Shown here: in pieces, positions 2,349 through 60,862 of the stretch
Layout: each line of letters opens with the position of its first letter
Numbering within the stretch: the first letter of the stretch is position 1
DNA from: Glandiceps talaboti
Taxonomy: Eukaryota; Hemichordata; Enteropneusta; Spengelidae
Assembly: GCF_964340395.1 (NCBI RefSeq)
Contig: NC_135557.1
Location: forward strand, 7,353,709-7,417,708
Direction of reading: 5' to 3'
Length of the DNA stretch: 64,000 nucleotides
Program-made: the position numbers and the translations under genes
Notes under the pieces: generated by a model
What the model saw: the letters and a program-made list of their open reading frames with translations, nothing else
Told to the model about the DNA's origin: nothing
Databases searched by the model: none

Positions 2349-4571
2349 AACATGTTAAAAGTACACAAATGTTATACAGACTATTTAGAACGTGTTTACT
2401 CAAAACAGTAAAATAATAAACTCTTATAGGTAGTATCTATCACAACACATCCTAATGCTTCAGCCATCAAAACTTATCTTCTTTTGCCAATAAAGTCAGG
2501 GCAAATTTCCCCCAAATTTTCTGCATTGATTGGCTTCGTTCTAGACTGTTCAAAGTATCCGGGTTGCTTGCATTAAAAGGTACGTATATCAAAATACATA
2601 TCGATAAGCTTCGGTCCATATATGATTTTTAGATTTCGAGAAACCAAGTGAACTTGACAGCCATGGAAATTCACTTCATTGTGGCATGCATCGAGAAATT
2701 CTTGAACTTATTGTTACATAAGAGTGTTGTCGTAAACGAGTTGTATAGAATCAAAGTATAGACCGGCTTCATGCTACCACAATGTTAACGTTTTGATGTA
2801 TACTAGCGATGTGACTAGGGTTTGAATTGAATTTATTATTGGCTATGGAAACGAGTGTACATATCCCGGGTATGTAGGGGATCGAGAAGTCGAGTCAAGC
2901 TTTTCTTTATTGAAAACCACAACTTCAAGTACTCATAATGATGGATTTATTGTTTATGCTTGATTTATTGTTATTGAATTTGGGTAAATATTGCGTGTAT
3001 TTATTTATATTTAATATCTTTAGCAGTATGTTAACCAAAATATACAAGCAGGCATTATATTCATTTTATGTGGTTGCCCTCGAACATTTTAAATAAATGT
3101 TCATGAAACGTCTTTACTAAGGTAGATATCATTAACAAAATGACATAGCAGTAGAGCCAGAAAATGGAGAGATTGTCAAAGTCTGTATACCTGGGCAGGC
3201 TGAATGTTGCTTGCAAATACAAAGAAATATTTGTTGTGTGACAAGAACTTTTTATCATTATCAAAATTATTGAAGAAAAACTCGTTGTAATTAGTTTGGT
3301 AAACTACATATAAAGTTAAAAATATAAACTTTACTCTCCTATAATTTTTCACTGGCGAAGCCAAGTTTTATTTAGACCAAGGACATTGCAAAATAATGAA
3401 ATGAACTATAATTTCACACCATGTTTTTAATCAAGTGTATAATGTATTAAGTCATGTCATTCATCTCAGTAATTTAATTTGATGGTAATGTTTTGAATTG
3501 TTTTGGGCATTTGTCAACAGCATAAACCTTTGACAAGGCTATTAAAAGTCGAGGTGTCATTGCCATAATTAAACCTTTGAATGTTTTTAAACATTATGTT
3601 CCCTTTGAAACAGCTCTCATGTTTTATTTCAGTACAGTTGTTGTCATCGACAGTGAAATGCAATGAGCAAGCAAATATATTCCCATATTTTTTTGTTTTA
3701 TGTGTCTATGGCTAAATTTCACAAGATTTCACATAATGTGGTAATTTCGGTTACCATGGCTAGTGATGTTCATAGAATGACTTATTCGTTTTAACCAAAA
3801 CATTGCATTTCAAGCCTACTTTATAGGTTTGTTTCCATTGAAACAACTATCCTTTTTAGACAATTTATTTTACAACAGATGTCAGACACACATACAGCAT
3901 GCAAAAGTGATTTTTTCGGTTTTATCTTTTTAATGTTTTGTCTCTTTTTGCAAAGAAATCACATATTATGACTTTAGTTACCATGGCAATGGTTGTTATA
4001 ATAATAATTACCGTTTAGAACTCAGCATAACAGACTACCCCCCAGGTAGGTAGACTACCTCAAAAGCCCATATACAACAACTGTAGAAAGACCCAATCAC
4101 CAGTATGGGAAGGAATTAAAGATATCATATTTGATCAAAAAATTGCTATTTATACAAAATGACTCAAGATTTATAATGGAAAAACCTGAAAAGCTGGTCC
4201 TAAATATCAAAGCAATTTGATCGCCAGTTTCGGAGAAGATGTCAAAATTTTTATTTTTAATCAAAAATGTCCAAAATAATGTGCTAAATGAAAAGATACT
4301 CATATAAGCATAGCATGAACAAACCTTAATAGCCTCTCCCAAGGGATATTCACACCAAACATGTAAGCATTCAGACTGTTGGTTTATTTTGGAGAGAATG
4401 TATGCATTGTTCTCATGGGAACTACTATTTTGAATTGTGACTGTGATAAGAGCATGTTCCGTTCCATCACGGTCAACTGATATCATTCTAAAGATTCAAA
4501 TGCTTCCAACTGTATACCTTTAGCAAATTATCAAATTATCTGAAAAATCTAATTTAATCTTGTTTCACTAG
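2349..4571. other. non-coding stretch, possible 3' LTR remnant at its start
   Basis: No gene is supported here. The first few hundred bases, directly after the pol remnant, contain AATAAA-type signals and could hold the element's 3' LTR. The left LTR is outside the window, so this cannot be tested. The rest is AT-rich unique-looking sequence and may be an intron of the gene whose exons begin at 4572. Confidence 0.4.
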
Positions 4572-4880
4572 GAGCCACTTTCAAAGTAAGGCGTCTGCAG
4601 CAATTACTGTGCACTGTTATTGGAGTTCTGATGTTAGTTTTTATGTACAACCTAACATTAAGCAATTATGGGAATGGTTCTGGTAATACAGAGATGAGTG
4701 TACCATGCTACAAAGTGCAAGGGCCTACATATATTGATTCAGGTACATGTAACATACTGTCTTGTGTTTTGACAAAGTGTATAACAGAAGCTGTCTACAA
4801 ACCTTCATTGTCGAAAAGCTTAGTTACACTGTTTTACTTCATTACGAGATGTATTTCATGTTTGATCATCAATAATCAGT

Positions 4881-4947
<67 letters not shown>

Positions 4948-5159
4948 CAGGTTTTGAAAATTTGAACCAAATTATATGCTATAGACCCTACAGAACTGTT
5001 TCGTGAGGTGCTACCCCTGATGAGTGAGGAATACGCACCTCACGAAACAGTTCTGTAGGGTCTATAGCATATAATTTGGTTCAAATTTTCAAAACCTGTA
5101 TATAATTCGCTCTACTACCCGTATTGAGCACTTTTATGTGGTTTTATCTACATCCAGTC

Positions 5160-5229
<70 letters not shown>

Positions 5230-7667
5230 TCATAAATATGTAAAATAAGACACAATTATTAACTATAGCCCATTTACCTTCAGTGTATAATTCAATTGTA
5301 CATAACAGTTCTATCTTGTCAATACAAAACATAATTTAAGAACAAAAGTTGTTTGAATGTCATGCTATACTTTTAATTATCAGTCAGACCACCCTAAATT
5401 ATTTCAACATATTATGGTGTTCAACAGTTTTTTTGCTTGAGTTGACCTTACTAGATGTATTTCATTTTTGATGTTATATTATATTATATTATATTATATT
5501 ATATTATATTATATTATATTATATTACAATAAATATTATTTATCTGGAGTAGCTGCAATAGCTCCAGTAATCAAATACAGCAACGTTTAACTCTGTTAAT
5601 GGTGTGTTAGCCATTAATGTATATCTATTGGTACTTACCTAATAATGACGTGTTAAGTTTTTTTTCTTATCTCAAACAGGGAGTTTGATGAAAGCCCATC
5701 CATCTGTAGTGATGAATGTATCTATATGTACTCATACCAAGTATGACGATGAAAAGTGTGTCATCCATATATTACCAAAAGCAAAGGTATTTTCAGAAGT
5801 TTTATAAATTATCATATTGTTATCGATGTATTACAATAGTAAGGTATCATGTTAGACGACGGGTTTTTACAAAATTGCATCTGTTCTCCCACCTAAACTT
5901 ATATTTTAGTCAGTGACATAAACCATCGTTGGTTTTACGGTATAAATATCTAAATGTATATTTAAGCTGAGTGGATAGGCTTGTCCCAAGAATTGTCACA
6001 ATGCCATGATATTCAAGGCAATTGTTGAATTGCAAATAAGGTTAAACAAGTCAAGGCCACAGATCACTGTTCAAAAGAAAGGTTTAATCACAGGGGATTG
6101 GAATTGAAAGAGGCAGAATTACAGGCATACCGATTCAGAAAGTTATGGATGTATAAAGTGAACTTTGTTGGAATATGGAAGTATCCCCCACATGGTTAGA
6201 ATATTTATCTTGTTAGGATTTAGATACTTCTTAGTGTTGGTACCGTAGCCAATTTTGCTATTCTATGCATATCTTTTGTTATTCTGTGTATATGGTGTGA
6301 ACTGTTCCTTTTGTGTAGTTATAGCCCTCTGTGTTTTGTGTAGTTTTGCCACTATAGTGCTCTGAGTAGTAAAGTAACCCTACACTCTCTATGGTTGTAT
6401 TGAGCCCACATTGCAATCTTTTGGTTAGAATGATCCCAGACAAGTAAGGAATTGTACCTCTATGTACACAGTTTCAGATCTATTTCTCATAAACAGGCAA
6501 CTGAAGTTTTGAACATTTCACTTGGAGTATGTCAAGAGAAAGGTACTTATATTTGAATACTTGTTTCCGTTACTGAGTCTATAGATCCTTGAGAGACAGG
6601 GATACCCAGTCGTGATGGCAATATCACTACTGTCATGGCCTTATGGTAATTGTGCATTGATGAGTGTGTAGACATTGCCATTCCCACATTTCAGTTGCTC
6701 CAATGGTGGTTATTTTTACAAGCCCCCCCCCCCCCCCCCCCTTAAGCTGAATATCCATGAACAAATCAGCCATTGTGTTCTGTTTGTACTAATTGTAAAG
6801 TGCCTTCTCTGATTGGTTGCTATTTATATTCTGGAATGTAAAAATGACTTAAGCTAGACCCCAGGCGTTCGCTCTTGATTGCATCTTTCAGAAACAGAGT
6901 GCCGAGAAGAAAGCTCGAGGTCTAGCAGCTAGACTAATTGAAGCTGAGCACGAAGGGTACCATCGTATACATACATACATGCAGACAAGGTGTTATTGTA
7001 TGTAATCACTGCTCAGTGAACACACCTCCATGTAAATATGTGATTATTCATGCTGCATATGTAAGTAACCAGGGACTATATGGGACGAATCCCCAGGACG
7101 AATCGAGCATGGACCAGTTACCCATCTATACTGCATAGTGCCTGTCTAGTTTGATTTAGTTGGAGTAGTCGAGGGTCCTCTGTTTTGATTGGTTGGTTGA
7201 CTGACTGTTATTAAAGTTTTCCGGTACCTCTCTCGTTATCACCATGAAGGGAAGGCTTCGTCAGCACTACTGATTTAGTGTGTGGACCCTTTAGAGTGTG
7301 GGTGGGTGGGTGGTTGGGCGCTAAGTGTCCTGCTCCGCAGTGAGAAGGCACAATTATTACTATTTGATAAAACCCTTATAAATCACTTCTCATGAATATA
7401 GCTACCCATCTATACTGTGTAGTGCTTGTGAAGTTTGATTTAGTTGTGGAGTGGTCGAGAGTCCTCTGTCTCATGTATACCCTCTTCAATACTCACCAAC
7501 CCACCTACCCCAACTTGAAAGCTTGACTGAGCAAACATTATCTATTCATTCAGGCATATTATTGACACTATATAGGGTGTTGATCTTGCCTTCTGTTGAC
7601 TTTCACGAATTCTGTCATTCAATGTCTCTATATCTTTAGGCAGCGGGAGAGGGTGATGTTCAGCTGA
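4572..7667 (+). CDS. 3' part of an unrecognised small membrane-anchored protein gene
   Basis: Three candidate exons have good splice signals and matching phases: 4572-4742, 5680-5786 and 6892-6956. A terminal exon starts at 7640. Joined in phase it ends at a TGA at 7665-7667; if the third exon is skipped, frame 0 ends at 7691-7693. The first exon encodes a basic stretch (FKVRRLQQLL) followed by a hydrophobic segment (TVIGVLMLVFMYNL) and then NxT/NxS-type sites, which looks like a type II signal anchor. The second encodes a Cys-containing soluble stretch, the third a Lys/Ala/Glu-rich helix. Upstream exons were not found and may lie left of or around the retroelement. I do not recognise the family. 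The second exon ends in phase 0, so it could also splice to the ZU5 exon at 9703; that alternative is not excluded. Confidence 0.4.
4882..4946. repeat. (CA)n then (TA)n microsatellite
   Basis: About 45 bp of CA followed by about 20 bp of TA. It directly abuts the left arm of the hairpin element. Confidence 0.95.
4943..5104. mobile_element. perfect foldback (hairpin) element between TA microsatellites
   Basis: An essentially perfect inverted repeat: left arm about 4943-5011, 23-nt spacer 5012-5034, right arm about 5035-5104. Arms are about 69 nt and contain TTTGAACCAAATTATATGCT and its complement. The element is bounded by TA microsatellites on both sides (to 4946, and from 5162). The right half carries a hammerhead ribozyme on the + strand. 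Such ribozymes are known in the terminal repeats of Penelope-like elements and in non-autonomous retrozymes. No protein-coding part is present here. Confidence 0.85.
5008..5070 (+). ncRNA. type I hammerhead ribozyme
   Basis: The conserved core is complete: CTGATGA at 5017-5023, GAAA at 5044-5047, and a GTA cleavage triplet at 5055-5057. Stem II is 6 perfect pairs (5024-5029 with 5038-5043) closed by an 8-nt loop. Stem III is 4 pairs (5047-5050 with 5053-5056) with a 2-nt loop. Stem I pairs 5013-5016 with 5058-5061, then a CTAT bulge, then 5008-5012 with 5066-5070 (one G-U pair). The very short stem III is typical of hammerheads in Penelope-like elements and retrozymes, which often work as dimers. 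Predicted cleavage lies after 5057. Confidence 0.85.
5162..5226. repeat. (TA)n microsatellite
   Basis: About 65 bp of pure TA, forming the right boundary of the hammerhead hairpin element. Confidence 0.95.
5473..5526. repeat. (ATATT)n microsatellite
   Basis: About eleven tandem pentamers, in the intron upstream of the exon at 5680. Confidence 0.9.
7115..7470. repeat. pair of direct repeats about 60 bp long
   Basis: Two copies share ACCCATCTATACTG, then AGTTTGATTTAGTTG, then GTCCTCTGT. They lie at about 7115-7182 and 7400-7468 with a spacing near 280 bp. Between them is GT-rich unique sequence. It could be a short tandem duplication or the ends of a small element. Confidence 0.6.
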
Positions 7668-8116
7668 CAAAAGTTGAAAGAGACATCAGTTGAGTAGTGG
7701 CACTCCCGGCACTGCTCTGCTGGTAAGCAAAGACGAGGACACAGGATATCTCTTGGTTGATTTAGTCTCTATGAAAGCTGAAGGAGAGAATTGACAGAAA
7801 AATATGTGTTGAAACGTCAAAATAATTTATTCGTTTGTTATTACGTGATCCCATGGAACTTACAGTTACAAATGCATGTGTACACAAGCTTTACACGGAA
7901 GCATTGTCTCATTTGATTTATAGTTACATATAGCTGTAATTACTATACGTATATACATATCAGTCAAATATGAACTATTATACCAGTCACACATAAGAAA
8001 GTATTATGCAACCCAAGTCCAAATGTGTCTTTTAATCCTCGTTTCCTCTTTTGATGGGAAAACCTCACCCATTTCTGATCTCATTCATAGATTCGTAGAT
8101 TCATTCTGACTATAGG

Positions 8117-9003
<887 letters not shown>

Positions 9004-9123
9004 CATACTGTGAATAATAAAAATACAAGGGTAGGTTTTAAATTTCTCCGTTTATCTTGATAACTTTCAAACATCCATACAGTTTATGATGATTCAACCT
9101 TGGCTGGCAATTTGATCCGTATC

Positions 9124-9378
9124 TCAACTGATTGAGACAATGTTTTGGGTACTCGAGTCAGATTGCAGCTGCACAAAATTTGAAACTTCTAGGTCATATG
9201 TTCCACTCAAGATTTCAATTCTGTCAGATCTTACACGATGATAAGCTAATGAGGGGATCTTAAGCCACTGAAGTCTTTCAGGATAAGACATTTTGGAGAG
9301 ACCTGGTACTTGTTTTGTCGCCCTCCTCAGTTTAATGCGTTCATCTAGTTTACTTATAATCGTCTTCATTTGCTTCAT
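9124..9378 (-). mobile_element. LINE reverse-transcriptase C-terminal fragment
   Basis: An open frame of about 84 codons on the minus strand contains RRATKQVPGL, a YPERLQWLKIPSL segment and HRVRSDRIEI. This is the conserved region just after the palm in non-LTR retrotransposon ORF2 proteins, in the form R-A-T-K-x-V-P-G-L ... Y-x-x-R-L-x-x-L-x-L-P-S-L-x-x-R-R. Only this short piece is present, so it is a truncated dead copy. The clade cannot be assigned from so little. It sits about 325 bp upstream of the first ZU5 exon. Confidence 0.6.
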
Positions 9379-9702
9379 TTACAAGTTTAAAGTATAATAA
9401 AAGGAAAATCCAACCTACCTACTCTATTTCCTGAATTCATGTAATCACAAGCAAACGCTTTTTTATGTTATTTTTTTCCAAATCTATATTCTAAATTTGC
9501 GCTTTTCTTAAACATTTAGAAAGTATTTTTGATAAAGCCTGCTGTGACAACCTCGAGCTCAATGCTTGCATACTCTACTCACAAAATGTCAAAGTAAATA
9601 ACAAACAGACAAGGACTACAGGTACTAACTGAGTATGTGTGTAGTGTACCTCTTACCTCAGTGACTTCCTTACTTGTGGTATTTTTTTTTAATTGTTCAC
9701 AG

Positions 9703-9993
9703 ACCAGGAAGTTGTTTGCATTATCCTTGAATTTCTACCTGGAAATACCGGAAGACGCCGTGGATGAGTTTTTAGAGCTCGCAATAGTACATCGCAGGAG
9801 TTTTGTTAATAGACCAAGACTGGATGACTTTGAATATATAGAATCTAGTATTATTCAACTCTTGCCACTCGTGCCAAACGTTACTGTTCCAATGAAACTT
9901 GGTTTTAGAAGTAATGGTCAGCATTCTACCCGTGTGTTCTTTATACTGAGAAGTGATGACGGGTTTATCTGGGAAGAACTTCCATGTTTTCAG
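9703..9993 (+). CDS. exon: first ZU5 domain, main part
   Basis: 97 codons, phase 0 to 0, acceptor after a T-rich tract ending TTCACAG and donor GTATGT. It shows the ZU5 pattern: a beta strand then an I-P-E-D-A-V turn (residues 14-19; the family usually has IPxGAL), then SSIIQLLP (50-57) and an FIWEELP strand near the end. The domain is completed by the start of the next exon (GNLTVVHITRLGYF). That segment aligns with the family's autocleavage strand but reads H-I-T instead of H-F-S, so this copy is unlikely to self-cut. Confidence 0.65.
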
Positions 9994-10771
9994 GTATGTT
10001 ATTAGCCATCCGTCAGCCAAAGCCCAAAGGGGGAATATCAATGAATCATGTCCACTTGTGCGTCCATCTCAGTGTATCAATCCATCCACGTGTGGGTAGA
10101 TATTCATATATCTGACACCACAACGTAAGCCAATATGAATGAATGTGTATAGTGTTAAGTCAGACACTAATACTTGAACCTTCATCTTCAAGGTCAAATA
10201 GCAATTTTCTCAATAAAGTTAGAAATTAACACTCAGAAAAAAAATCAATTATTTGACTTATATCAAAGGGGCAATTCAGTTTGGTGGACGTAAATCTACA
10301 CATTAAGAAAACACAAATTGCAAAGCAAAAACAAGCAAAACAGATTAAAACGAATGCCTTCCGTAAGGTTTATCTTGAGTGTTTTTGTTCCAACACAAAA
10401 TAATTCTGGAATGCAAAAATCTTGCCTATAGTAGGCTATTAATACATGATATATTGTTTTTCTTTTTTGTGGCCTACAGACCTACTTACCGAAAATATGC
10501 CAATATCTTATTAAAACTAAAAGCTACATCAATACTATTTTCAGGACAGAAGCACTTTGGTATCGAAAACGTATGAACCAAATCATTGAATTTGAAGTGT
10601 GCGTTCCTCACACATTAATTACGTAAATTGCTCATTAATATTCATGAGAAATTTACCGAAACTTAATCAGTTCTTGCCATTACCGTATTAAATCAGCATG
10701 TGCAATAATTTTATTTGTCTAGCCAACACACGCACATACACACGGACGGACGGACGGACAAACACAAACAA

Positions 10772-10845
<74 letters not shown>

Positions 10846-13800
10846 TTTTGAAGTCGTCAATAGTAAAGTATAGTAAGTCCTTCATGTCACGAGATTTTGA
10901 CCAGATGCGACACTAGACTGCACCAGGTGTACTCAAAGTTTAAATGTGTTTTTTTTTTTTTTTTTTTTTTTGGTTGTTTGTTTTAAGTCTACTCGTCTCC
11001 GGACATTTAGTTTGAAGTATAAAGTGTAGCTTCTCTGATAAAACTAATTATTTGAATAAAAAAATAATTGTTATGCACAATCATATGAACAAATTATGCA
11101 AATGAGCCCACCCTGCTATCAGACCAACCCATGGAGAACACTGGAACCACATTGCCATGCTTTAAAAAAAAAAAAAAAAAGCTGCAGTGAAGAACATTTT
11201 TGATTGTCAGGAATCACAATTCTTGTGTATATATTGGTAAAGTACCAGAACATTGGAATCTCTTTTTCTCCTCTCTGACTGTGCTGGGCATGCTGATAAA
11301 CACACAATTTGTTCAAATAAACAGTTCAAACTAAATCTCGCCCAAAACACTTCGTACTCTGTCGGGTTACATCGGAATCAGTGTAGTGATCGCTAACCAA
11401 TTACTTTAAATTTGCTACATGAAAGTTTTGTTAGTAATTTCTCACTGACACCTGCCCTCTGAAACATCAACTTTTCTTGGCAATTGTAACTGGTTAATTT
11501 TTCAGTTAAGGGCTACATCATGTATAATAGCTATAGCACAGAATGTTGCGTTCCAACAATATGTACGTGTAAGAACAAAGAAGATATGGCATTTATGGCA
11601 CGATTGAAAGCCACTATTTACTATTGTGCACACTAGTATGTGCCATTTTGAAGATCTATTGATGATCTATCTTATGTGTTTATTACAGCTCAGAGACTTG
11701 TTGCTGGTTTTCAGAAATGATTTGATAACCAACGTCTCTAGGCTATACTTATTATTGAGTATAAAATAAACTTAGTTGTGAAAAGCTGCCAGCAATGTAA
11801 CATAGTCTACTTAAGTTTACTAGCCTATTTGTAGTGGTTTATGTATAGTGTATTGTATTGTACTGTACTGTACTGTACTGTACTGTACTGTACTGTACTG
11901 TACTGTACTGTATTGTATTGTATTGTATTGTATTGTATTGTATTGTACTGTACTGTACTGCACTGTACTGCACTGTATTGTATTGTATTCTATTGTATTG
12001 TATTGTAGTATAGTGCAGTATTGTGAATTGTACATGTAATTTTAATGATGTAGTGCAGTTTACTTTTAGAGTAAGATAGAGTAGTTTAATGTAGTGTAGT
12101 GTATTGTATTTTCGAGCTCAAACGTCACCTTTTTGATCAGCGCGAAGAACATTTTCAGTTTTCAATTGTAGCAAGCATTTCTAGACTTCCTCTGATGTTC
12201 AAATATTTAAATCGTGCTACATAATTAAATTTTTAGTCACTATTATAGTCATTTTGGGTTTTGAATCGTAACATAAATACAAACTAAAAACGTAACCGTG
12301 CAGCATAGACATTTTCGAAACACGACAGTCACGGATATACATTTTTATATACTTACGATTTAAAACCAAAAACGCAGGCTAAAATTGTAAACGTGCAAGT
12401 GATTTAACATTTCTGAAAGTCGACATAATCGAACAAAAATGACTGCACGATACACGTTTTTGACACAATTGAAAACCAAAAATTTGACATAATTTAGAAT
12501 CAACTCTCATCGTGTAGTCATTTCTATGAGTGTTTTGATTTTCAAAAATGTAAGTCGTTCTGCATGAGTACGTTTTTGTTTGCATCGATCGATGAATGAT
12601 TTTCACAATGAATAATGAATAGTTGCTTTTACAGAAGTATAGTATACAATTGCGCTTGTATTTAGACATCATTAGGTTTTTTGTATATTGCACTATATAT
12701 GTCTTTCATATTACAGCATGGTAATTTGACAGTTGTGCACATCACAAGACTTGGCTACTTCATTGTTAAGTCCAAACCATATAGAGAAAGATTGGTGATA
12801 GGAAAGAGTGACTGTACATATATTTCACCAGTCCATAGTTGTCTACAAATAAGCATTCCATCAAATGCTGTGCCACATCCACTGTTTGTCGATGTTATGG
12901 TAATGAAACAATCGTCATTTTTTTTACTAATTGTTAAATTCAAGATGAAAATCACCCGAGATTAAGAGATACCATCCTTGATATTAAATTTTGACTAAGA
13001 GCTAGGCCATTTGGTCAAAACACCTACAACCCGGGAAAAAATGTCTATCTGAGAAGTCGAATGGCTGAGTGACATTCTCATGGTTGCCTGTATGTTTCTC
13101 TATATGAGGAATAGTTCATTGGAAAAATGATCTGAATTGTGGTGTTTTCACAATGTCATATACATTTCTTAGCATTTTGCCCGACTTCTTTTTATTTCTA
13201 GTTTGTCGAACCAGATATGCAGTTACTCAGATCTACATTCCAGTCAATGGAACACAATGGCAATATGCCCATCAGTGGTCCACTGGTATACATTGAAGGA
13301 CACAATGGACTACTGCTTGAGAAAGCGGTAAAATTATCATTTCCCATGCCAACTGCAGATAGAGTTGATGAAATATTGGACGAATGGCAGCTGAAAATCT
13401 TTGAAGATACAAAAAGTGACAACACATGGAAAGATATTACCAACGAGGTGCTTTACGATATTGGTACAGGCTGTGTCACTATTCAAGTCGGCCATTTTTC
13501 TGGGTAATGTATGGTGTACAAGACTCAATAACCACACTTATATGCAGTGCATGCTATCTTGTTAGTAAAATATGAAACAGAATGAGTGATTATTATTGAC
13601 AGTTTGCAACAAGACATTTATCTCCTCATCATGCACTCACATATGTTCTGTGAAATGGGTTACCAGATTTTGGCTGAAACATCATTGGTATTTGTACTTA
13701 CTGACAAAGAGACCCTTTGCTAAACCCACATCCATAATCCTTTAAGGTAATATTGCGCAATGTAAGATATTTCGAATGGTAGTTTATAAGTTGGATCTAA

Positions 13801-15320
13801 AATACGTCTGTCCAAACACACGGTATATTTGCCCAATATACGTGCATAGATTATAATCACTATCACGCCAGCACTGGGTTCATGACTACAGCATTTCAAT
13901 AAATTGATTATTTGAGGTTCACCAAATATCATCATCGGTTTCTTAGACGTATTCCTTGAAAAAATAGATCTACAAGCGGGAACTTAACAACTGAATATTT
14001 TTTTCCAGTCTTGATATCTGTAGCTACCAGTTCCAATGGTATTGATTTAACTATGCTGTTCAATGGTAACTACATGGAATTAACTGGTTAATTTACATGC
14101 AGTCAGTTGCGATGCAAAATCCAGTTGCAATATTCTTTCTTGCCTTCTTTATTATATGACAATTTGGATATGTCCTAAACTGGAAAACTGAACAGCATTT
14201 TGTTTAACTGTGCATGTATATTTCCCTTACTTATAATGTACCAATAGATACAGTTCTCGACCTGACTCTTAACTTAAACCAGATTTAAACTGAATGCCTC
14301 CCGTAAGGGAATCACTTATTATGCAAATAACTCATTAAACTAAAAAAAACTATGGTAACAGGCTTCTTTTGGACAAGCTTTCTTAGGTTAATGTATGTAC
14401 GAGTGTATGATACTGCTTAATGCAGTCTTAAGATATAGCCTAATTACCGAAAATCATTAATTATGCAAATTACTCATTAACACTGTAAGGTACATCAACT
14501 AACTTTATAGGACATACACAATTTGTTATGGTTAATATATGTACTGAATTGTATTGAAATTGAAGTATGCAGTCATAAGATATAGCCTAATTACCGAAAA
14601 TCATTAATTATGCAAATTATTCATTAACACTGTAAGGTACATCAACTAACTTTATAGGACATACACAATTTGTTATGGTTAATATATGTACTGAATTGTA
14701 TTGAAATTGAAGTATGCAGTCATAAGATATAGCCTAATTACCAAGAATCATTAATTATGCAAATTATTCATTAACACTGAAAGGTACACCAACAAGCTTT
14801 ACAGGACATATGCGATTGTTATGGTTAACGTGTATACTGAATTATATTGGAATTGAAGTATGTATTTTTAAGATATAGCCTAATTACCGAAAATCATTAT
14901 GTATATTATTCATTAACAATGTATGGTGCATCAACAAACTTGTTATGACATATGTGTTTTCTTATGGTTAATGTATGTACTAAATTATGTTGAATTTGAA
15001 GTATGTATTCTTAAGATATAAGCTAATTACCAAAAAATGTTAATTGTGAAAATTATTCATTAATGCTGTAAGATACATCAATGAAGTTTGTAGGACAAAT
15101 GTATGTTGTTATGTTTAATGAATATACTAAATTATATTGAAATTGAAGTATGAAGTCTTAAGATATTGCGTAATTAGTTGATTTCATCAATATGCAAATT
15201 TCTATAATTAAACATTAACAGATCTGGCTCAAAACCTAATCAGGTCTAGCTATTACCCTAAAGATTATATATCTCAAATTTCGTTACAATTGAGCCAGCC
15301 GATATTTAGAAAATGATGAC

Positions 15321-15358
<38 letters not shown>

Positions 15359-16297
15359 TGACAGACACACAGACAAACATTCCCCTTTTAATACCTCCCC
15401 TACCCTTACGGGAGGTAAAAATCAAACATATAGGCTACCTCATCGAGCATGCAGTAATCGATAATTATTGGCCCGAGCCAGACGCTATATTCCTAATAAA
15501 TATCAATCAATAAATGTAATGGCAACCTATTTATAATCATGCTAAATGATTGCTGTGACGCAACGGTTTTGTAATGCAACAACGATGAATATTCCCTGTG
15601 CAACAGATGCATCTCTTATGTTTTAACCTAATTATTATGTTTTGTTCCACTTAGATATTCTTCATATTTGGTACCTGCTCTTGCCTTGCCAGAACAAGCT
15701 TCAGCCTTTATAGGAATGGCTGAAGCAATCAAAGACTATGTTAATAAAATGGTACACGGTCAATACCTTGTTAAATTAATCCTACTGCAAAACGAAAAAA
15801 AAACATATAACCTTGCAGTAGATTGTGTTGAAAGCAACAGACACAGAGAAAGCATTCTATACTTAGATGAATACGACTACAAGAAGGGAGACAGTATGCC
15901 AATTTCTCGGGATGTTATTGTGAAGAAAGGAGATGCAATCAAAGTAACAGTTGCACAAGACCTGGTCCTTAAGGATTACGAATTCGTTATATTGTGGTTC
16001 CAGCCATATCAGGATAATCACAGGACATTTGATGTAATGCCGAGAAAACCTAAAGTGAAACAGCTTAGGGGACGAGTTGATTTTATTGATGTCACTACTG
16101 ATGCTATACATGACAATCTATATTTCAGTATTCTAGTCAACATGGTAAGCAAATAACTGTCATAACTAAATATTCCAATGAATGAGTTCATATTTTTAAA
16201 TTAAAAGAATCAAAAGTAAAGGGCGACTAGGGCTCTCTAACCAACCGACATTTGTAATAATTGCTAATATTTGCAATAATAACTGTGACAAAAGTGC

Positions 16298-16335
<38 letters not shown>

Positions 16336-19300
16336 TAACAAACAAACAAACAAACAAACAGAAACGTGCTGTTTGGCAAATTTCCATAAATATGACATAA
16401 TTTACCTAGCAATGAAGATAATGTCCATACCAATGGGGAAAATATGGTGTCCATAATTATTCAAACATATCACATAAACTATACAGTGACAACGCCATTT
16501 GGCTATATTTGCCTTGTACTTCCTAATTTTGTAGGATGAAGACCAGTGTGGTGTCCCGTGCTCTGCTGACAATTCAGGTAAAAGGTTATATATTATATTA
16601 TACCATTATTATATCGCTGATGCATATCAAGAGATCCCATTTGTCAATACATCAAACTAACATGTCTAAAATAGTGATAATGCACAGTTAGGGCGACTCT
16701 AATTGCCCCTGAATGAGAATAATATATGCATTTTGATCGCTGTCGTCTGCATCCATCATGACCATGTCTTCCATGCCAAATGCTAATATTTTCTTAATTG
16801 GGAGAAATGAATATAATGTTGTTCTTGGCCCCATAAAATGCAGACGAAGTAAGGCAGATCGTGCACGTAAGTCTGTCACAAACGGGATCTAAATTGGGGC
16901 CATTCAAAAATGAACTTGCCAACTTCCGACTTCCAATTTCCAACTCTGTGTGTATATTTTGCTGTATACCAAATAGGCCAGGTTGTTATGTTTTACTGTA
17001 TAACAAATAGACCAGAGTGGTATGTTTTACTTTAAACCAAATGGGCCAGGATGGTGTGTTTTACATATACCAAATGGGCCTGGATAGTAAGTCTTGATTT
17101 ATACCAAATAGGCCACGATGGTACGTTTTACTTAATACCGAATGGGCCAGGGTGGTATGTTTTATTTTATACCTAATGGGTCAGGGTGGTATGTTCACAT
17201 TTTCATAATTAAATTGTTATGTTTTCCTCAGGGGAAGCACAAACATCTACCCTAACCCCCCCCCCCCCCACGGACCAAATTAGAAGGGTGATAAATTACA
17301 AGTTTAATGCTTAGCTCGTACACGAAGGCTACATCTTCCATTGCACACACTATTGGTACACAGCTGTGGGTAATACACCCGTCACAGCTGTGCTCACATA
17401 GCTGGTACATAGCTGTGGAAAATATCCATGTTACAGTATTGCTCACATAGGTGGCGCATGGGTGAGGGAAAAAGCTCTTGTACAGGGGTGTTATAAAAAC
17501 ACATACTGCATTGCTATTTGCCACACCCATACTACATGGATGTTTGGCATACCAGTTGCACACATGTCACGTCTAGGTATATTGCATAGGTGTGCTGGTC
17601 AAAGCTGTTACACGGATATTTTTCACAAAGCTATTACAGGCCTCATGGCTCAACTGAGCTGGTACAACTGTGTGCACAATACTGTCCTAGGTATGTGGCT
17701 GTTAAAGGGATGTGCAAGGTTCTATGTGTACCCCTTGCTAATTTTGACCAGTTGACTGACGCTTATGCGTATATGTCGTGAACTTTTCAAAACCTCTGGG
17801 GACACCATACCCAGGGGTGGTTTATTGCATATTATATTATACCAGTACATTGATGGCGCAGATCGAGAAATCTGATTTGTCTAGACGTCAAACTGGCAAG
17901 TGTAAATAGGCAATAATGAACAGTTGGCAAGTGTCCAAATTTTGATGTTCGATGTTCGTCAACGAACATTGAAGTCGGCATTGATAGTGAACTATGCAAA
18001 TTTTCAGAGGAGGATTTTTTCAATGAGACATTAGATTATTGGAGATAATGAAGGAAAGCAGCAGATTTATCGTATTTGTACAAATTATACCTACTAAGGT
18101 CAAGGCATGCACGCGATCGGTTTGTTGAATATCAACGTGCCATCATGTATATCGTCTCACTCCATCAAGTCGAAGCCAAGTGGGCACAGCTGCTGTATTC
18201 AATAAACGACTTCAAGTTTATACATTGAGTAAAACATGTATTTTTTTCATTACTGTATGCTGAGCTGTATACTGAGCCGATCAATGTACAGATTGTGATA
18301 ATAATATCCCTAGAAACGAGTAGATAATATAAATCAAGTCGCTGCATGACGCTCGTTGTCAAGGGGTCTGTGAGATGAGCTGGCTTGAAAACTTTAGTGT
18401 TATGCAATTTGTTCATGAAACCAGAAAACGTTAGTTTTTATTCGTATCTTACTTAACCTTATTCGAGAATATAATAACGATACACCTCCCAGTGGGGGTG
18501 GTATATCGTTCGATTTTGACCAGTTAAGTCAGTATAGGCACGAGCAATAGCGAGTGCCTATATTTCGTTCACTGGTCACACACTCTTGGTATACCATCCC
18601 CAGGGGTGAGTGTTATTACTTTATTATTGCCGTGGTGTTAGGTTATATGTCTCAGACGGCAAGGGTATGATTGGCACTACGCGTACTAGAGTGCTGATGT
18701 ATGCTTGTATGAAGTATAACTCAATATCAAGGTCATAAATAGTTCCAGGTTTATTTCATTGAATGTAATATATTATGATGACTCTCCACTTTGAAAACAT
18801 TGGAAAGATGGGTGATCGAGTACATGACGTACAATACCAGATTTAATCTGAATGCCACCCCCCGAGAAAAACTCTAGATTTTTGGGCCTACACACATTGT
18901 TCGAATGGAAATTCTGTACCAATTACTCAAGGAAGGAATGATACGAAATTTGATGCTTAGGTAGTTAATGTATTGCCTACTTATTAATAAAATCATTATT
19001 TATGCAATTTGACCATTTAGCTTAAAGTTACATCATCAAGCTTTAAAATGACGAATGCAGGTGTTTACCATCAATGCATGTACTGATATGAAGGAAATTT
19101 AAAGCATATTGCCTAATTATTAAAATGATTATTTATGCAAATTACACATCACAATTAAAAAAGACATGAACAACAACATCAAACACATAAATGTGTAATG
19201 ATTGGTGGATGTACCAGGTTACCAAGAAATTTGAAGTTTGTATTTTTAAGATATGGCCTAATTACTGAAAATGATTAATTATGCAAATTACTCATTACAG

Positions 19301-19731
19301 TTAAGAAAAACTATACCCATAGACTTTATAGGCTATGTGTGCTTGGTTATGGTTGGTGTATGTGCAAAATTATATGGATTTGAAGAGTGTATTCTTTAGA
19401 TATAGCTTAATTCCTGAGAATCGTTAATTATTCGAATTATTCATTAAAAGTAAAAGCTATATAAACAAACTTCAAATGACAAGTTCACTTCTTTATGGAT
19501 AACTTATGTACTAAATTAGATTGAAGTTGAAGTATGCATTCTTAAGTTACAGCCTAATTACCAAAAGTCATCAATTATGCAAATTGAACTGTTTAATATG
19601 AACAGATCTCGCTCAAAAACTAATAATTTCTAGCCATTACACTTAACATTTTATTTAATTAATATCATTATAATTGAGCCAGCTGTATCTTTTTTAAGAA
19701 AATGATGACACAGGCAGACATATAGGCAGGC

Positions 19732-19776
<45 letters not shown>

Positions 19777-19803
19777 CAGACACAGACACAGACACAGACA
19801 CAG

Positions 19804-19882
<79 letters not shown>

Positions 19883-22462
19883 GATAGACTGACAGACTGA
19901 CAGATACACAGACAAACATCACCATTGTAATACCTTCTGTGCCACCTTTACGGCAGGTAAAATACTTTCAATTCACCCAAAGTTCAATCATTCATAACAC
20001 TTTAGTGACAAATACATTCTGCAATGGTAACAGTAAAACTGTGATTTCGTTTCAAAATGATAATTTTCCTAAGCAACAATTTAAATATTATCAAGTTGAA
20101 GTTTTATTGTGATAGGGTACTTATCAGAATTTTCGGACATTTCATATCATATCTGTTATACTTTAACTTCCAGTTTCAATGCTTCAGTGGTCTGGGCATG
20201 TGCTGACAGATGGTATTCCTAAAGTGAAAAAACAAAAGAGAAACAAGAACTCAAGGTAAACATGAAAAGGGGCTTTTCGAAAAAAACAGGATATCAGTAA
20301 CAATGAAGGTTATTTTATTATAAATATAAATATGTCATCAGCAATATACTCAATTGACTTCTTCAGTTGACTGAATGTTTTCGACAGGTGCTCCTATTTA
20401 CATAAGCTTCAGAATTTTGAACCATCTGCTCGTATCCATGCAAAAGTTACAACTCTGTCCTGCTTGATAGCAGGCTTCACCGCCCGGTTCCTAATTGGTT
20501 CATGTCACTTACTGTGTAAATCCATCGTTACACGTTAGCTGTCGTTGTTCCTAATCGCCTCACACAACTTTCTGTGTAAACCCACCGTAACAGTGACACA
20601 TTAGTTGGTACCCATCAATGCCTATTTTTTATTAAGCAACTGGGATCTGGCACCAATCTTGACTACTTTTCACGATAACTCAGACAGTGGGCATAGGGAG
20701 TACTGTCATGTAAGAGGATTTAGCTCTGTCCCATTGTCGTACACTGCAGCTTCTTTTATGTCACCATCCAAGATACACTACCAAGAGGATATTGTAAATA
20801 GCATGCAGCTCTGGTTTGCGAGAATGATATGTCCCTGTTTAAGTTGTGACCAGTATAGTGATTCTTACTTGTTCTGATTACAATCAAAATCAAGCCAGGT
20901 TTTAAAATCCGAAGTACTTGTCAATAACCATGTTATGTGATTAAAACTTACAGAAAACATTCAGTCCACTGAAGAAATCAATTGCATCTGGACGAAATAT
21001 TTGGACAACGTTTTGCTTGTGATATAGTAACCTTTGATATAATTATGATACTAAGGGGAGGGGGTCTTTCTCTTTACATGATAAAAATAAGTATGAATGT
21101 TCAGAAAGATTTATTAGAGGTAAATATGGTACAGATCGGATGATTTATATCACTCTATACATGGCTATAAATATATCCTGCATGTTAATAATGCCTCATA
21201 TTTTCATCTTACACATAATTATTTCTTTGTTTTTATTTAGAAGTGTGTTGATTCTGAATGACGAATGGGGCACCTCTAAAGGGGGGCTGTCTTCAGTGCA
21301 TCGAATATTAACTCAGACGCTGTCTGAAGCGGGCTTTTCAGTATATGTTACTGCACTTGCTGTTACGGAAGAAGAAAATCATGATGCAGAGGAAAAGGGG
21401 ATTAGGCTTATTGTTGCAAAGGGTCGAGATACTTTAAGCAACCCTACTAAAAAAGATTGGTTAACTGAAAGTCATGCCTATCATTTTCCAAGTCTGGAGA
21501 AAATACCAAATTTAGAAATTATCATTGGGCATGTACCACTGACATCTGCAGCTGCATTATCAATTAGAAGGGAGCGTCTGGAGGGATGCCAAGTGTTCCT
21601 TGTTAACCATGTCATCCCACAATCAACGGATATACACAAAGACTCTTGGGATCTTGGTAAAATTGAAGCTAAGACAAGCGACATCGTGGAACAAGCTGTG
21701 GATGCAGATATCATCTTCTCAGTTGGACCAAGAATCAGAGATACCTTTGGTAATGAGTTTAGAAAGAGGGAAAATATAAATCACAAATATTATATCCCAT
21801 ACCCCGAGGATGACTTCTTTCAAGTCAAGATTGAAAAGCCTGAAAAGAGTCACCCTTGCCATATTCTCACATTTGGTAGGGTGTCATGTGATAGTAATCT
21901 GAAAGGTTTTGACATAATTGCCGAAGCTCTAGGGAAGGTGGCCGATGATATCTATAAAACATCTGATAAATCTCTCGTGTGGAAGATACGCGGAATTCCT
22001 GAAGACCAACAACATAGGACTGTAAGCTGTCTTAACGAACACGTCAAGTCTCCAAATCTCAACATACATCCTGAAATATATGGTACCCACAAACAAATAG
22101 TCGATGATATAAAATCAAGCCATCTTTTTGTAATGCCGTCACGAAGTGAACCCTTTGGAATGGTGGCTTTTGAGGTAATGGCTGCTGGACTTCCATTGTT
22201 GGTTACACGTAATTCAGGCATTGCCGATTACATGAAAGTCCACTTTCCAGAATATAAAGAGTCAATGATTGTAGAAGTTGGGGTGAACGAGAAGGATCGT
22301 CCGGGAGATATTAATAAATGGGCAGAAAAAATAACCAAAGTTCTTATGAAGGATTATGAAGCTAAATTCACCGAGGCTCAAATTATAAAGAAGCGACTCC
22401 AAGAGAAGAAAGACAGTGATGAAGAATGTGATTTCAAGAAGATGGTTAATGGGCTTATTTAA
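9703..22462 (+). CDS. ZU5-ZU5-UPA-glycosyltransferase (GT4) fusion gene, 5' end not found
   Basis: Seven exons have canonical acceptors and donors and fully compatible phases: 9703-9993, 12717-12899, 13202-13503, 15655-16144, 16535-16577, 20174-20255, 21241-22462. Together they give 870 codons plus TAA (residues counted from 9703). Order: ZU5 no. 1 (about 1-115), ZU5 no. 2 (about 140-258), UPA (about 259-420), short Cys-containing and basic linkers (423-464), GT4-type glycosyltransferase (465-870). The tripeptide HFS (13493-13501, Ser258) lies exactly at the ZU5/UPA junction, the place where PIDD1, UNC5CL and the NLRP1/CARD8 FIIND self-cleave. The first exon with a start codon is missing. An in-frame ATG at 9637 reads through the polypyrimidine tract and is probably fortuitous. 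No signal peptide can be judged. Seen: exons, phases, motifs. Inferred: one transcript, autoproteolysis, immune role. Confidence 0.75.
10322..10843. repeat. partial copy of the TIR/147-bp element family
   Basis: Begins AATGCCTTCCGTAAGG like the left end of the element at 14277 and includes an ATTACGTAAATTGCTCATTAA segment. It ends in GGAC, GACA and CA microsatellites (10742-10843). It is shorter than the copies at 14277 and 18838 and carries one or no internal unit. Lies in an intron of the ZU5-glycosyltransferase gene. Confidence 0.6.
11856..12010. repeat. (TGTAC/TGTAT)n pentanucleotide array
   Basis: About 150 bp of TGTAC and TGTAT pentamers in blocks. It is open in several frames on both strands only because of its composition. 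A pure TGTAT relative is at 61520-61580. Confidence 0.95.
12717..12899 (+). CDS. exon: end of ZU5 no. 1 and start of ZU5 no. 2
   Basis: 61 codons, phase 0 to 0, acceptor TATTACAG, donor GTAATG. The first third completes ZU5 no. 1. The last part (SCLQISIPSNAVPHPLF) is the opening strand and I-P-x-x-A-V turn of a second ZU5 domain. Tandem ZU5 domains followed by UPA is the arrangement of ankyrins and PIDD1. Confidence 0.6.
13202..13503 (+). CDS. exon: second ZU5 domain ending in the HFS motif
   Basis: 100 full codons plus two bases (phase 0 in, phase 2 out). It contains SGPLVYIEGHNGLLLEKAV, the PVxxxGPHGLxFxKPV-like central strand pair of ZU5, then a long acidic strand region. It ends VTIQVGHFSG. 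The H-F-S tripeptide is the minimal self-cleavage signature of PIDD1-type ZU5 domains. Confidence 0.7.
14277..15420. mobile_element. non-autonomous element with short terminal inverted repeats and internal 147-bp tandem units
   Basis: The left end reads TGCCTCCCGTAAGGG and the right end CCCTTACGGGAGGT, an inverted pair. Inside are five to six tandem copies of a unit near 147 bp, marked by TAATTACCGAAAATCATTAA at 14441, 14588, about 14735, 14881, 15024 and 15171. They are followed by a GACA array (15324-15365) next to the right end. No protein is encoded. Divergence between units is visible but low for the first three. It is a MITE- or satellite-carrying element in the intron before the UPA exon. 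Confidence 0.7.
15655..16144 (+). CDS. exon: UPA domain
   Basis: 490 nt, phase 2 in, phase 0 out, acceptor TTCCACTTAG and donor GTAAGC. It begins YSSYLVPAL, continuing directly after the HFS-G of the preceding exon. It contains a helix rich in Ala/Lys and several beta strands, and ends with FDVMPRKPKVKQLRG and YFSILVNM. Position and secondary-structure pattern fit the UPA domain (conserved in UNC5, PIDD and ankyrins). Similarity is moderate, so the call leans on its place after ZU5. Confidence 0.55.
16299..16362. repeat. (GACA)n then (AACA)n microsatellite
   Basis: Nine or more GACA tetramers followed by AACA tetramers, just downstream of the UPA exon. It may be the remnant end of another copy of the 147-bp element family, whose members end in GACA arrays. 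Confidence 0.9.
16535..20255 (+). CDS. two short linker exons (16535-16577 and 20174-20255)
   Basis: The first encodes DEDQCGVPCSADNSG, the second a short stretch ending in a basic cluster (KVKKQKRNKNSR). Both have AG/GT borders. They are the only combination I found that carries the reading frame from UPA (phase 0) into the glycosyltransferase exon (phase 2). The basic cluster could act as a nuclear signal or simply as a linker. Small exons chosen by eye carry more risk than the flanking ones. Confidence 0.5.
16960..17200. repeat. minisatellite, unit about 41 bp
   Basis: Six imperfect copies of a unit containing ACCAAATGGGCCAGG and GGTATGTTTTACT. Followed by a poly-C tract at 17258-17269. 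Intron of the ZU5-glycosyltransferase gene. Confidence 0.75.
17330..17700. repeat. degenerate tandem repeat region
   Basis: Loose repetition of CACAGCTGTG-, GCTCACATAG- and GCACACAT-like words. Units are too diverged to define a period. No gene seen. Confidence 0.35.
18478..18615. repeat. foldback element
   Basis: Outer imperfect inverted arms (ACCTCCCAGTGGGGGTGGTAT against GGTATACCATCCCCAGGGGT) enclose a hairpin TAGGCAC ... GTGCCTA. A related piece lies at 17735-17830 (TTTTGACCAGTTGACTGAC and ACCATACCCAGGGGTGG). MITE-like. Confidence 0.55.
18838..19965. mobile_element. second, more diverged copy of the TIR/147-bp element
   Basis: It starts CCAGATTTAATCTGAATGCC and ends TTTACGGCAGGTAAAA. 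Internal copies of the ATTATGCAAATTACTCATTA unit are spaced near 130-150 bp. The 3' part carries GACA, CAGA, CA and TA arrays (19722-19882) immediately before the right end. Same order as the copy at 14277 but with diverged ends. A third left-end fragment is at 23559-23600. Confidence 0.65.
21241..22462 (+). CDS. terminal exon: GT4 (group 1) glycosyltransferase domain
   Basis: A single 1222-nt exon, about 406 residues, with both Rossmann lobes of a GT-B fold. The N-terminal lobe starts SVLILNDEWGTSKGGLS, where the glycine-rich loop binds the donor. The C-terminal lobe has HILTFGRVSCDSNLKGFDI, then FVMPSRSEPFGMVAFEVMAA with the E-x7-E motif (Glu767 and Glu775) typical of retaining GT4 enzymes, then GLPLLVTRNSGIADY. 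Motifs look intact, so activity is plausible; the donor and acceptor sugars are unknown. From memory, GT group 1 domains are also reported attached to NACHT/NB-ARC receptors in corals, which supports an immune-type context. The in-frame ATG at 21140 lies in the intron and is probably not used. Confidence 0.85.
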
Positions 22463-23789
22463 AAGCAAGCAGTTTGAATAAGACATCAATATGCAATAGT
22501 GTGACACTGTCGTTTCATACGTATCTTTATTCACACATATCATCAACTGCTACTAATTTACAGCTAGAGTTAATGTCTCTGTCACATGGTTGTGATTTTG
22601 AATAATAGATTCTTTAGTTTAATGTACTAGTGACCTTTTGATGAATGGTGATGACAGGTATAGGTCACGGACCTTTTTGTGATGAGAGTGTGCTAGTTTA
22701 CTTGCCTACAGCTAAACATCTGTTGAACTTTGTGTGTACCCAATCATCGTTAAGGAGACCCCTATAAATACCCTCTAAGCCAGTGATAACATACTTCTCC
22801 TAACTTTTAACATCAAGGCCTGAAGGTGAATACTGCTAGTTTAGTGCCGCTGACTTGCTGGCTACTGTGTGCTGCCGCATGGGCGTGAATTACATTCCAC
22901 AACAAGAACTCAACCTACACCAACGGGACACTACGTTAATTTGCTAATGGCCTACGGAAATTGACTGTCCTTAGTACCGTGTAAAACTGGTGAGTTCATG
23001 ACTTGTGGATAATTGTATACAAGACAATATGGACTGGCTGACAGCCATTTGAGCTTCACATTTCGCGTGTACAACCGTTTGCTGCCACGTGGACTTAGAA
23101 TTCGCTAAATAATTAGTTAGTACCTGTCATCACCATAACTACGCATTTATAAGCTTTGTTCTTTATTTTGTACAACCTGACAAGTGTATCAGGGGATATG
23201 TATAGCACGTTCCGTTTCATTTTATGTAATATTATTTCATGGTCAAATACAGTATTCTCAATTGATATTTTGTTCTCTGTCGCTTCATTTATACAATACT
23301 CCATTCTAACCTTAGTTGTGTGTGTCACTCGACCATCTTGTGACAGTACCCAATTTTACCACAACATAACTGAGTTTCAGGCATATTAAAATGTCTGTCT
23401 GTCAATGTAAATAACTTAAAGTCAAAAACTACCAAACCAATTAACTTGGCCCTTGATTTTAGGGTCTAGTTCGGGAATTACTCAAGACAATATGATCACA
23501 TCACAGGTATGTGATTTGTGTCAAAAATATCATTTTGGTCAAAACAAAATAAACTCAACCAGGTTTAAACTGAATGCCTTCCGTAAGGGCAAAATATTCA
23601 GATGTTCGATCCTACACACAATAATTGTTGGAATGCAACAGGAGATATTCACTTAGTAATGTTGAATTAATATTGAATTTAAAGTGTGTATTTTTAGGAT
23701 ACTGAAAAGCAACAGATATGTTGGGAGGGGGAGGGAGCATACTGTAGTATAGAGAATGGTGAATAGCCACATCCAAAAAAATATCATAT

Positions 23790-28385: not shown

Positions 28386-56043
<27,658 letters not shown>

Positions 56044-56340
56044 TGCATACTTCCAAACAGACGAAGAACAAAATTACAGTGAAGAACTCTGAGCCATCAA
56101 CAACGTTATATTTACAGTGCGCTGAGCTGATCACGATAACAATAGGTAATTTATTTTTAAATTTTGACGTATATGCTAACTAGGTGTGACACACAGGTCA
56201 TGGAATTCCCCGAAGTAGACACAATAGAACAGTCTACCGTTAAGACACCTTCGTGTGACGCAGCACTATATTGTGCCGGGTTTATTTTTACCCTTAACAA
56301 ACTATCGAACAATTATATGCCTTGACACATATAATGAGTG
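56044..56340. promoter_or_regulatory. 297-bp bidirectional promoter between two PARP14-like genes
   Basis: The start codons of the divergent genes are at 56043 (minus) and 56341 (plus), so both promoters and 5' UTRs must share this interval, unless untranslated upstream exons exist. It holds a kappaB-type decamer (56202-56211) and AT-rich stretches near 56147-56175 but no clear TATA box at a fixed distance. Confidence 0.7.
56202..56211 (-). promoter_or_regulatory. kappaB-type site GGGGAATTCC
   Basis: On the minus strand the decamer reads GGGGAATTCC, a full match to the NF-kappaB consensus GGGRNNYYCC. It is near-palindromic, so it can serve both genes. It lies 159 bp upstream of the minus start codon and 130 bp upstream of the plus start codon. 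Confidence 0.55.
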
Positions 56341-59300: not shown

Positions 59301-60807
59301 ACGTACAGTAGTTTAGGAGATGACAATGCCAGCAGCTAACTTCTGACGGACACTACTCAAATATAAGAAAAGGTTATTCAAGAAGCACTAAGGACAAAAA
59401 AAAGTATTTCTGATCAGGACAGTTTGTCTAAAATGGTGCTACGACACGAGTATTGTCAGTTAAAGTTACAGTTACTGTTCTTTTTATTTTGTATTTTAGA
59501 GCAATTGTTTATGTGGGGCAGATGTCAATTGCTTTATAATTGGCTCTGCAGTTGTCTTCACTGAAGTAGGGATGATTAATTTTTTTCCCCACGGATCTAG
59601 AGACTGCATAGGCTGGGTAAACACACAAACAAGACCGACATTTTTTTTTTGTATTGGTTTAAGTCTTGCGTTTATTTCTTTCGAAAAGAAAGGAGTTGTT
59701 GCGGCCCACTCAACCACGTCATTTTCAGTTGGAATCTGCTACTATGCCATCTAGTGGCAGAGAGTGAAGAAGGGCAGATGTTAGATTTGAAACCACTCTG
59801 TATGTTGTTGTCTTTGCATTGGTGTAAAATTACATGAAAACAAGTTTTCACATGTCTATACTCCTTCCAATTGATTGAACAGAGAATTCTATTAACTTAG
59901 AGAAGATTATGAACACGTATGCGGCCACTGATGGACTTCTAGAATTGGTGCTTAAGTCTGTAAGCAGTAGGCAGGCTAGGACTAAAGTAGATGTTGCAGA
60001 CCTGTAACATATACAGTCTGATGGGATATTATTATATGCAGACCAAAACTAAAAACATGCTTATGATCAGATTAGAAAATAAAATAATGTACATTTGGTT
60101 GCAATTCGACTTAGAATAGAATACGACTTGGATAATGCGATGAAACATAAGAAGTTGAAAATCTCAAATGTCTTTACGAACCGTGTTTTAAACACATTTC
60201 TGTCTGTGTAATACGTAATATTAGAATCCCGTACAGCCTGCAGAGTATGAAGAATTCAAGAATCGGATTCAGACTCAGACAACTGGACGCTGTGGTGATG
60301 CTCCCACTGCCCATTATGAGCCACATAAAATGGTTTTGCCGACGTCACAAATGCCACAACAGACGCCAGTTTTACCATCAAGACCATTACAAGGTCATCA
60401 ACACCATGATCAATGGCAACAACTGAAAGAAGAACAGCAGAGAAAAGATTGGCAGCAACAGTTGCAACAAAACCCAGGCTATTATACAGGCAGTGATTCT
60501 GGAAAGAGGGGCGTTGAACAACCAATGATGCCACAAAATAGAGATGAAACAACCTACCAGTCACCACCACAGTATGGTCCCTATGGCGATATAACAGCCC
60601 AATACCAACGCCAGCATCCACCACAACAACAGTTTAAGAGTGAAACCAATCCACAGTTGCGGCCACCTTATTTGCATAGTCAACTGGCATACCATGGCCA
60701 AGAGCAATGGTGGTCAAGCCAGCAACAGAGGTACCCACCACCACTTCAAGCACCATATCCAACCCATCATCGACAACACATGAGATATGGAATTGATCAA
60801 CAACAAC

Positions 60808-60862
<55 letters not shown>

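Follow-up and report, generated by a model that had tools for sequence, protein, structure and literature searches.

The window analysed here, a stretch of 64,000 nucleotides from the acorn worm Glandiceps talaboti (contig NC_135557.1, positions 7,353,709 to 7,417,708), carries seven exons between positions 9703 and 22462 which join a putative ZU5-ZU5-UPA module to a GT4 glycosyltransferase. The best explanation of the whole, to which we assign a probability of about 50%, is that one gene encodes a cytosolic, self-cleaving ZU5-ZU5-UPA-GT4 protein that releases an enzyme fragment. The gene is intact and partly conserved in another acorn worm, Ptychodera flava, and it probably combines two known building blocks of immunity in a new way.

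Coordinates are those of the window, and all parts of the gene lie on the plus strand. Two NCBI proteins of G. talaboti, those of LOC144439732 (P0017, 267 amino acids) and LOC144440291 (P0001, 591 amino acids), are identical to the window over their respective stretches. The parts of the gene are as follows, a slash in a motif marking the splice or cleavage point.

8401..8424, plus strand: likely first coding exon of LOC144439732 (8 residues); the P0017 N-terminus was placed here by translation and the donor GTGGGT adjoins; doubtful.
9703..9993, plus strand: exon 1, most of ZU5-like domain 1, its first strands absent (splice sites, phase; P0017; very weak collinear ankyrin ZU5 match).
12717..12899, plus strand: exon 2, end of ZU5-like domain 1 (without HFS) and start of ZU5-like domain 2 (splice sites, phase; P0017; Pfam ZU5 with E = 0.027 at P0017 residues 132-215).
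13202..13503, plus strand: exon 3, remainder of ZU5-like domain 2 with HFSG at its end (splice sites, phase; P0017; Pfam ZU5 below the cut-off).
13493..13501, plus strand: HFS motif, residues 256-258, predicted cut F257/S258 (sequence; HFSGY also in P0006 of Ptychodera).
13505..13507, plus strand: TAA in the exon 3 donor (GG/GTAATG), in frame when the intron is kept; LOC144439732 ends here (sequence compared with the P0017 C-terminus).
15655..16144, plus strand: exon 4, first the last strand of ZU5-like domain 2, then the UPA-like domain (splice sites, phase; P0001; BLAST to P0006; profile matches to ankyrin ZU5-ZU5-UPA).
16535..16577, plus strand: exon 5, linker (splice sites, phase; in P0001).
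20174..20255, plus strand: exon 6, linker with a basic end (splice sites, phase; in P0001).
21241..22462, plus strand: exon 7, GT4-conflict glycosyltransferase and stop.
22148..22174, plus strand: E-x7-E motif, E767 and E775 (sequence; both Glu invariant in 16 aligned GT4 proteins).

The seven exons with compatible phases that the initial annotation had proposed were confirmed by the splice sites: AG precedes each of the seven exons, GT follows each of the first six, and the join yields an open reading frame of 870 codons followed by a stop. The junctions 13503/15655, 16144/16535, 16577/20174 and 20255/21241, named there for checking, proved base-exact at canonical sites. Five of the six junctions are reproduced across the two NCBI models. 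P0017 consists of the eight residues placed at 8401-8424 and exons 1-3 and carries 9993/12717 and 12899/13202, and P0001, which runs from an internal Met in exon 4 (15716) through exon 7, carries the last three. When the region 9000-23000 was simulated 200 times with a first-order Markov model, the longest frame reached at most 159 codons, so that the stop-to-stop frames of 174 and 474 codons exceed the longest frame in 200 of 200 simulations. Frames of at least 101 codons arose in 118 of the 200, and the short exons are therefore not significant by length alone. The seven-exon model contains no start codon. P0017 supplies eight extra N-terminal residues, and the stretch 8401-8424 resembles, by eye, a local repeat with similar stretches inside 8739-9014. 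Upstream exons were sought as open frames in 2400-9702, where none could be assigned by eye. The missing start codon, the weak first exon and the introns, which appear repeat-rich by eye, might indicate a decaying or unexpressed gene copy, but with 870 codons free of stops or frameshifts and an intact catalytic motif this is extremely unlikely.

Judged by its sequence, the C-terminal half certainly belongs to the GT4 glycosyltransferases. The GT4-conflict glycosyltransferase family of Pfam (PF20706) matches the full splice with an E-value of 3.4e-68 (230.8 bits; cut-off 26), and the C-terminal half matches glycosyltransferase families only, with no C-terminal death-fold domain in the Pfam search of the full splice, unlike PIDD1, CARD8 and NLRP1. 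The E-x7-E motif of retaining GT4 enzymes is intact, and none of the 16 aligned GT4 proteins departs from either Glu. The GT4 part has a GT-B fold, for which UDP-bound BshA was the nearest structure, with ties including HepE. The claims of an intact-looking GT4 glycosyltransferase and of the two motifs HFS and E-x7-E were borne out; HFS occurs a single time. The only match obtained with PADLOC, Cas6b with an E-value of 0.04, was dismissed as chance.

A search with the GT4 region (E ≤ 1e-10 among 5607 candidates) found 16 proteins. Besides P0001, there are 4 further ones from Glandiceps, 5 from Ptychodera flava, 3 from Saccoglossus and 3 from Branchiostoma, 15 in all. Their Pfam partners are DED (above the cut-off in P0002 and P0011, below it in P0008 and P0009, weak in P0010), Death (P0015), Sushi (P0004), COR (P0007), COR together with LRR and OTU (P0016) and a piece of p450 (P0013), and five relatives (P0003, P0005, P0006, P0012 and P0014) have no partner above the cut-off. 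The relatives bearing DED, Death, COR or LRR/OTU include hemichordate and amphioxus proteins, which we count in favour of a releasable immune enzyme. P0004 of Glandiceps (761 amino acids) combines GT4-conflict with Sushi repeats (four stretches) and, by eye, a likely N-terminal transmembrane stretch, which is unusual for a presumed cytosolic effector.

Among the 15 relatives, only P0006 of P. flava (676 amino acids) matches residues 1-463 of the window protein (30% identity over 151 residues, E = 4e-14); the remaining ones gave E-values of 0.49 or worse, or nothing up to E 10. The homology between P0006 and the window spans the exon 3/exon 4 junction, and P0006 starts within the last part of a ZU5-like domain and continues, in a single model, through HFSGY and the UPA-like part to GT4. 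The order of a ZU5 end with HFSGY, UPA-like domain and GT4 thus exists in a second acorn worm, in one model. The initial annotation had suggested looking for the same order in related genomes; it recurs in P0006 from HFSGY onward, while most of the ZU5 part is absent there.

The N-terminal half is probably a divergent ZU5-ZU5-UPA tandem. ZU5 (PF00791) was the sole family obtained for P0017 among 24736 Pfam models with matches listed to E 10, and it lies at the expected position. In addition, a profile of two sequences, the window protein and P0006, was searched against 177635 PDB sequences. The longer profile gave one match to E 10, the ankyrin-3 ZU5-ZU5-UPA chain (E 1.1), and with the shorter alignment three of five matches were ankyrins (ankyrin-2 4d8o, E 0.65; ankyrin-2 6m3q, E 0.81; ankyrin-3 6m3p, E 1.3), the ankyrin matches being mutually non-independent. 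The alignment to 4d8o is collinear from the end of the first ZU5 through UPA, and the reversed shorter alignment (nearly exact, with one residue wrong or missing per row) found no match in the PDB. A search with the two-sequence profile among 4956 candidates of 0.55-1.75 times the query length retrieved only P0017, P0006 and P0001 at E ≤ 1.

Several results weigh against this assignment. The ZU5 match remained below the curated cut-off of 21 bits, both for P0017 (15.2 bits, E 0.027) and for the segment alone (13.5 bits, E 0.088), and no Pfam match to UPA (PF17217) was obtained for the full splice, the exon 4 segment or the N-terminus of P0006. An unrelated molybdate-binding protein (two entries, E 0.49 and 0.56) ranked above the ankyrins with the shorter-alignment profile. 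AlphaFold predicted P0017 alone, i.e. ZU5-ZU5, with a mean predicted local distance difference test score (pLDDT) of 32.8, and residues 1-180 of P0001, the UPA part, with a pLDDT below 50. Of the two ZU5 domains and the UPA domain claimed initially, ZU5 was therefore recovered, though below the cut-off, whereas UPA has no Pfam match, and the N-terminal domains are best described as ZU5-like by position and ankyrin profile, not as Pfam ZU5 members by cut-off. They might also be beta-rich domains other than ZU5 and UPA, in line with the lack of a significant family match and with the single-sequence PDB searches, in which the full splice gave 31 matches, none of them ZU5 or UPA, and the N-terminus only unrelated sialidases and TetR proteins. 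This is very unlikely, because a correctly placed ZU5 was the single Pfam match to P0017 and because the ankyrin ZU5-ZU5-UPA module was recovered collinearly from the entire PDB set.

NCBI annotates two genes in this region, and junction 13503/15655 is contained in neither model, which speaks against a single protein. According to this annotation, a short ZU5-ZU5 protein would terminate with HFSG, and Met 15716 would begin a second, independent protein, UPA-GT4. Control of the enzyme would then lie with UPA by itself or involve a non-covalent complex with the ZU5-ZU5 product; in a mixed case, a single gene would give the short form when the intron after exon 3 is retained. The in-frame TAA inside the exon 3 donor agrees with this, and P0017 ends after HFSG, as expected if GG/GTAATG is read through as GGG TAA. 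If the intron at this donor (13502-13507) were retained, the ZU5-ZU5 protein would terminate precisely with HFSG and might represent a natural short isoform. P0001, for its part, starts 20 codons into exon 4, but no stop interrupts these omitted codons between the acceptor at 15655, which is canonical, and the Met, and they align with P0006 from HFSGY onward, and P0006 crosses the same point within one model. Moreover, the stretch YSSYLVPAL is absent from both NCBI proteins, P0017 stopping two residues after HF, and the split would leave the second ZU5 without its last strand. Work on CARD8 places its cut where ZU5 ends, immediately ahead of a strand described as crucial for the UNC5b fold (PMC3210808). 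Since the last-strand stretch is left out of both NCBI proteins and P0006 spans the same point, a single gene whose annotation was split in two is the likelier explanation, although this is no proof. From the sequence, one gene is favoured over two and the join of exon 3 to exon 4 is probable, while two separate genes are unlikely.

Positioned where the second ZU5-like domain ends, HFS provides the scissile F-S pair and is kept within HFSGY in P0006. HFS is given as the cleavage motif of PIDD and Nup98, whereas CARD8 and NLRP1 carry SF/S (PMC3210808). The same source describes cuts after each ZU5 of PIDD; here, HFS is found only in the second ZU5-like domain. A cut at F257/S258 would yield products with calculated masses of 29.5 kDa (without the start exon) and 69.7 kDa, the latter close to the fragment near 68 kDa expected in the initial annotation. 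Mutation of Glu-279 of CARD8 is reported to reduce cleavage (PMC3210808). A Glu located 18 residues before the Ser, which may correspond to Glu-279, is present in the window protein, but is an Ala in Ptychodera. For CARD8 it is further described that the halves remain associated after the cut (PMC3210808) and that the C-terminal half is freed when the N-terminal half is lost (PMC9213247).

If no cleavage occurs, one gene would encode a ZU5-ZU5-UPA scaffold or clamp of the ankyrin/UNC5 type, holding the attached GT4 in position or inhibiting it. Among solved proteins, ankyrins are the nearest in sequence, and HFS is absent at this point from their printed alignment; the amphioxus protein P0014 has HFQGY instead. 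Both observations fit a module that is not cut. Such a scaffold is nevertheless rather unlikely, because HFS is exact, is kept in Ptychodera and equals the PIDD/Nup98 motif. P0014 (Branchiostoma hybrid, 788 amino acids) may be a distant case of the same order, as its N-terminus matches 18 columns around HFQGY (hhalign E 0.0047, probability 7.5%; BLAST E 0.067). With these 18 columns as the only match, it was dropped from the profile and is regarded as a mere lead. Two hydrophobic stretches ahead of its GT4, noticed by eye, might indicate a membrane-bound, non-cleaving relative.

For the self-cleaving protein from one gene, the following mechanism is proposed. The ZU5-UPA part would serve as a regulatory module of the PIDD1/NLRP1/ankyrin type, and the second ZU5 would probably cut itself at HF/S soon after folding, with the halves staying bound to each other. 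Upon removal or opening of the ZU5 half, a UPA-linker-GT4 fragment of 613 residues and 70 kDa would be freed, by analogy to CARD8, in which loss of the N-terminal half frees the C-terminal one. UPA would then cluster the enzyme, and GT4 would transfer a UDP-sugar to a target of the pathogen or the host. The sugar-modifying effector released on infection, as suggested initially, gains from the domain order, the prediction of the GT4 family as a conflict effector, an HFS of the PIDD/Nup98 type and the order in Ptychodera. In its full form, i.e. a self-cleaving sensor resembling PIDD/NLRP1 whose freed C-terminal piece is itself an enzyme, with UPA clustering and activating a UDP-sugar transferase that acts on invader or host molecules, and with at least two acorn worms retaining this ZU5-UPA immune branch, which does without a death-fold step, this view is possible but still tentative.

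In the surroundings of the gene, exons of PARP14-like genes were found on the minus strand (28386-46280), with PARP catalytic, WWE, Macro and PARP14 KH domains above the Pfam cut-off in five tested frames. PARP14 relatives are immune-related in vertebrates, and the GT4 gene may therefore adjoin another immune-type locus. Open frames on the plus strand (56338-63170) resemble, by eye, stretches of the PARP14-like gene of the minus strand (e.g. 62850-63170 and 45969-46280) and are possibly a second copy in opposite orientation; two frames of this region gave no Pfam match. Remains of retrotransposon type occupy 169-2348 on the plus strand, with RT_RNaseH_2 at 571-855 and stops between consecutive frames in 169-1182.

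Most components of the proposed protein have counterparts in known systems. GT4 effectors of metazoa and bacteria have been predicted to modify invader molecules or to block contacts between host and invader, and GT4-TRADD-N proteins are described for cnidarians, cephalochordates and hemichordates (PMC8195603). Like these GT4-conflict effectors, which are often C-terminal, are fused to regulatory or death-fold domains and have hemichordate and amphioxus members, the window protein belongs to the GT4 family; however, the metazoan partner named for GT4 in the text passages of that paper is TRADD-N (with LRRs), not ZU5-UPA. TRADD-N is also described there in fusion to FIIND and to a UPA-Zu5 module, with autoproteolysis predicted for the latter. 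These are likewise immune-type ZU5-UPA fusions of marine invertebrates, but TRADD-N was not seen here (Pfam gave glycosyltransferases for the full splice and ZU5 for P0017, and may hold no TRADD-N model). Ankyrin-2 and ankyrin-3 (4d8o, 6m3p, 6m3q) share the tandem ZU5-ZU5-UPA, collinear in the profile alignment, but have no HFS in the printed alignment and no enzyme. A precedent for ZU5 beside an enzyme is provided by the ZU5 autopeptidases of bacterial polymorphic toxins, in which autopeptidase and enzymatic effector likewise form one protein; these are secreted, their ZU5 lies near the N-terminus of RHS proteins, and the passages concerned name no UPA (PMC3482391). In corals, NACHT proteins bearing glycosyl transferase group 1 domains, mentioned in the initial annotation, are indeed described (PMC4083563). 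They too place an enzyme of this broad class in an immune architecture of an invertebrate, with NACHT and not ZU5-UPA.

Published predictions thus already cover the effector role of GT4 and a ZU5-based deployment, as far as the text of PMC8195603 goes. Among the openly licensed literature texts searched, it alone contains both whole words ZU5 and GT4, and ZU5-UPA joined to GT4 was not found there, although the figures (Figure 6) and supplementary data of PMC8195603, which lie outside that text, might hold it. The predicted ZU5-UPA order is shared with PIDD1 (ZU5-ZU5-UPA-Death), CARD8 and NLRP1, and HFS ends the last ZU5 as in PIDD, but their C-terminal piece is a death-fold adaptor and here it is an enzyme. 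To our knowledge, animal ZU5-UPA proteins that cleave themselves relay their signal by way of a death-fold domain. If the proposed reading is true, the same trigger could bring an enzyme into action without such a step, as has been suggested for the conflict systems of bacteria. It would also provide a testable animal switch (HF/S) for the GT4-conflict family, for whose targets the text of PMC8195603 offers predictions only.

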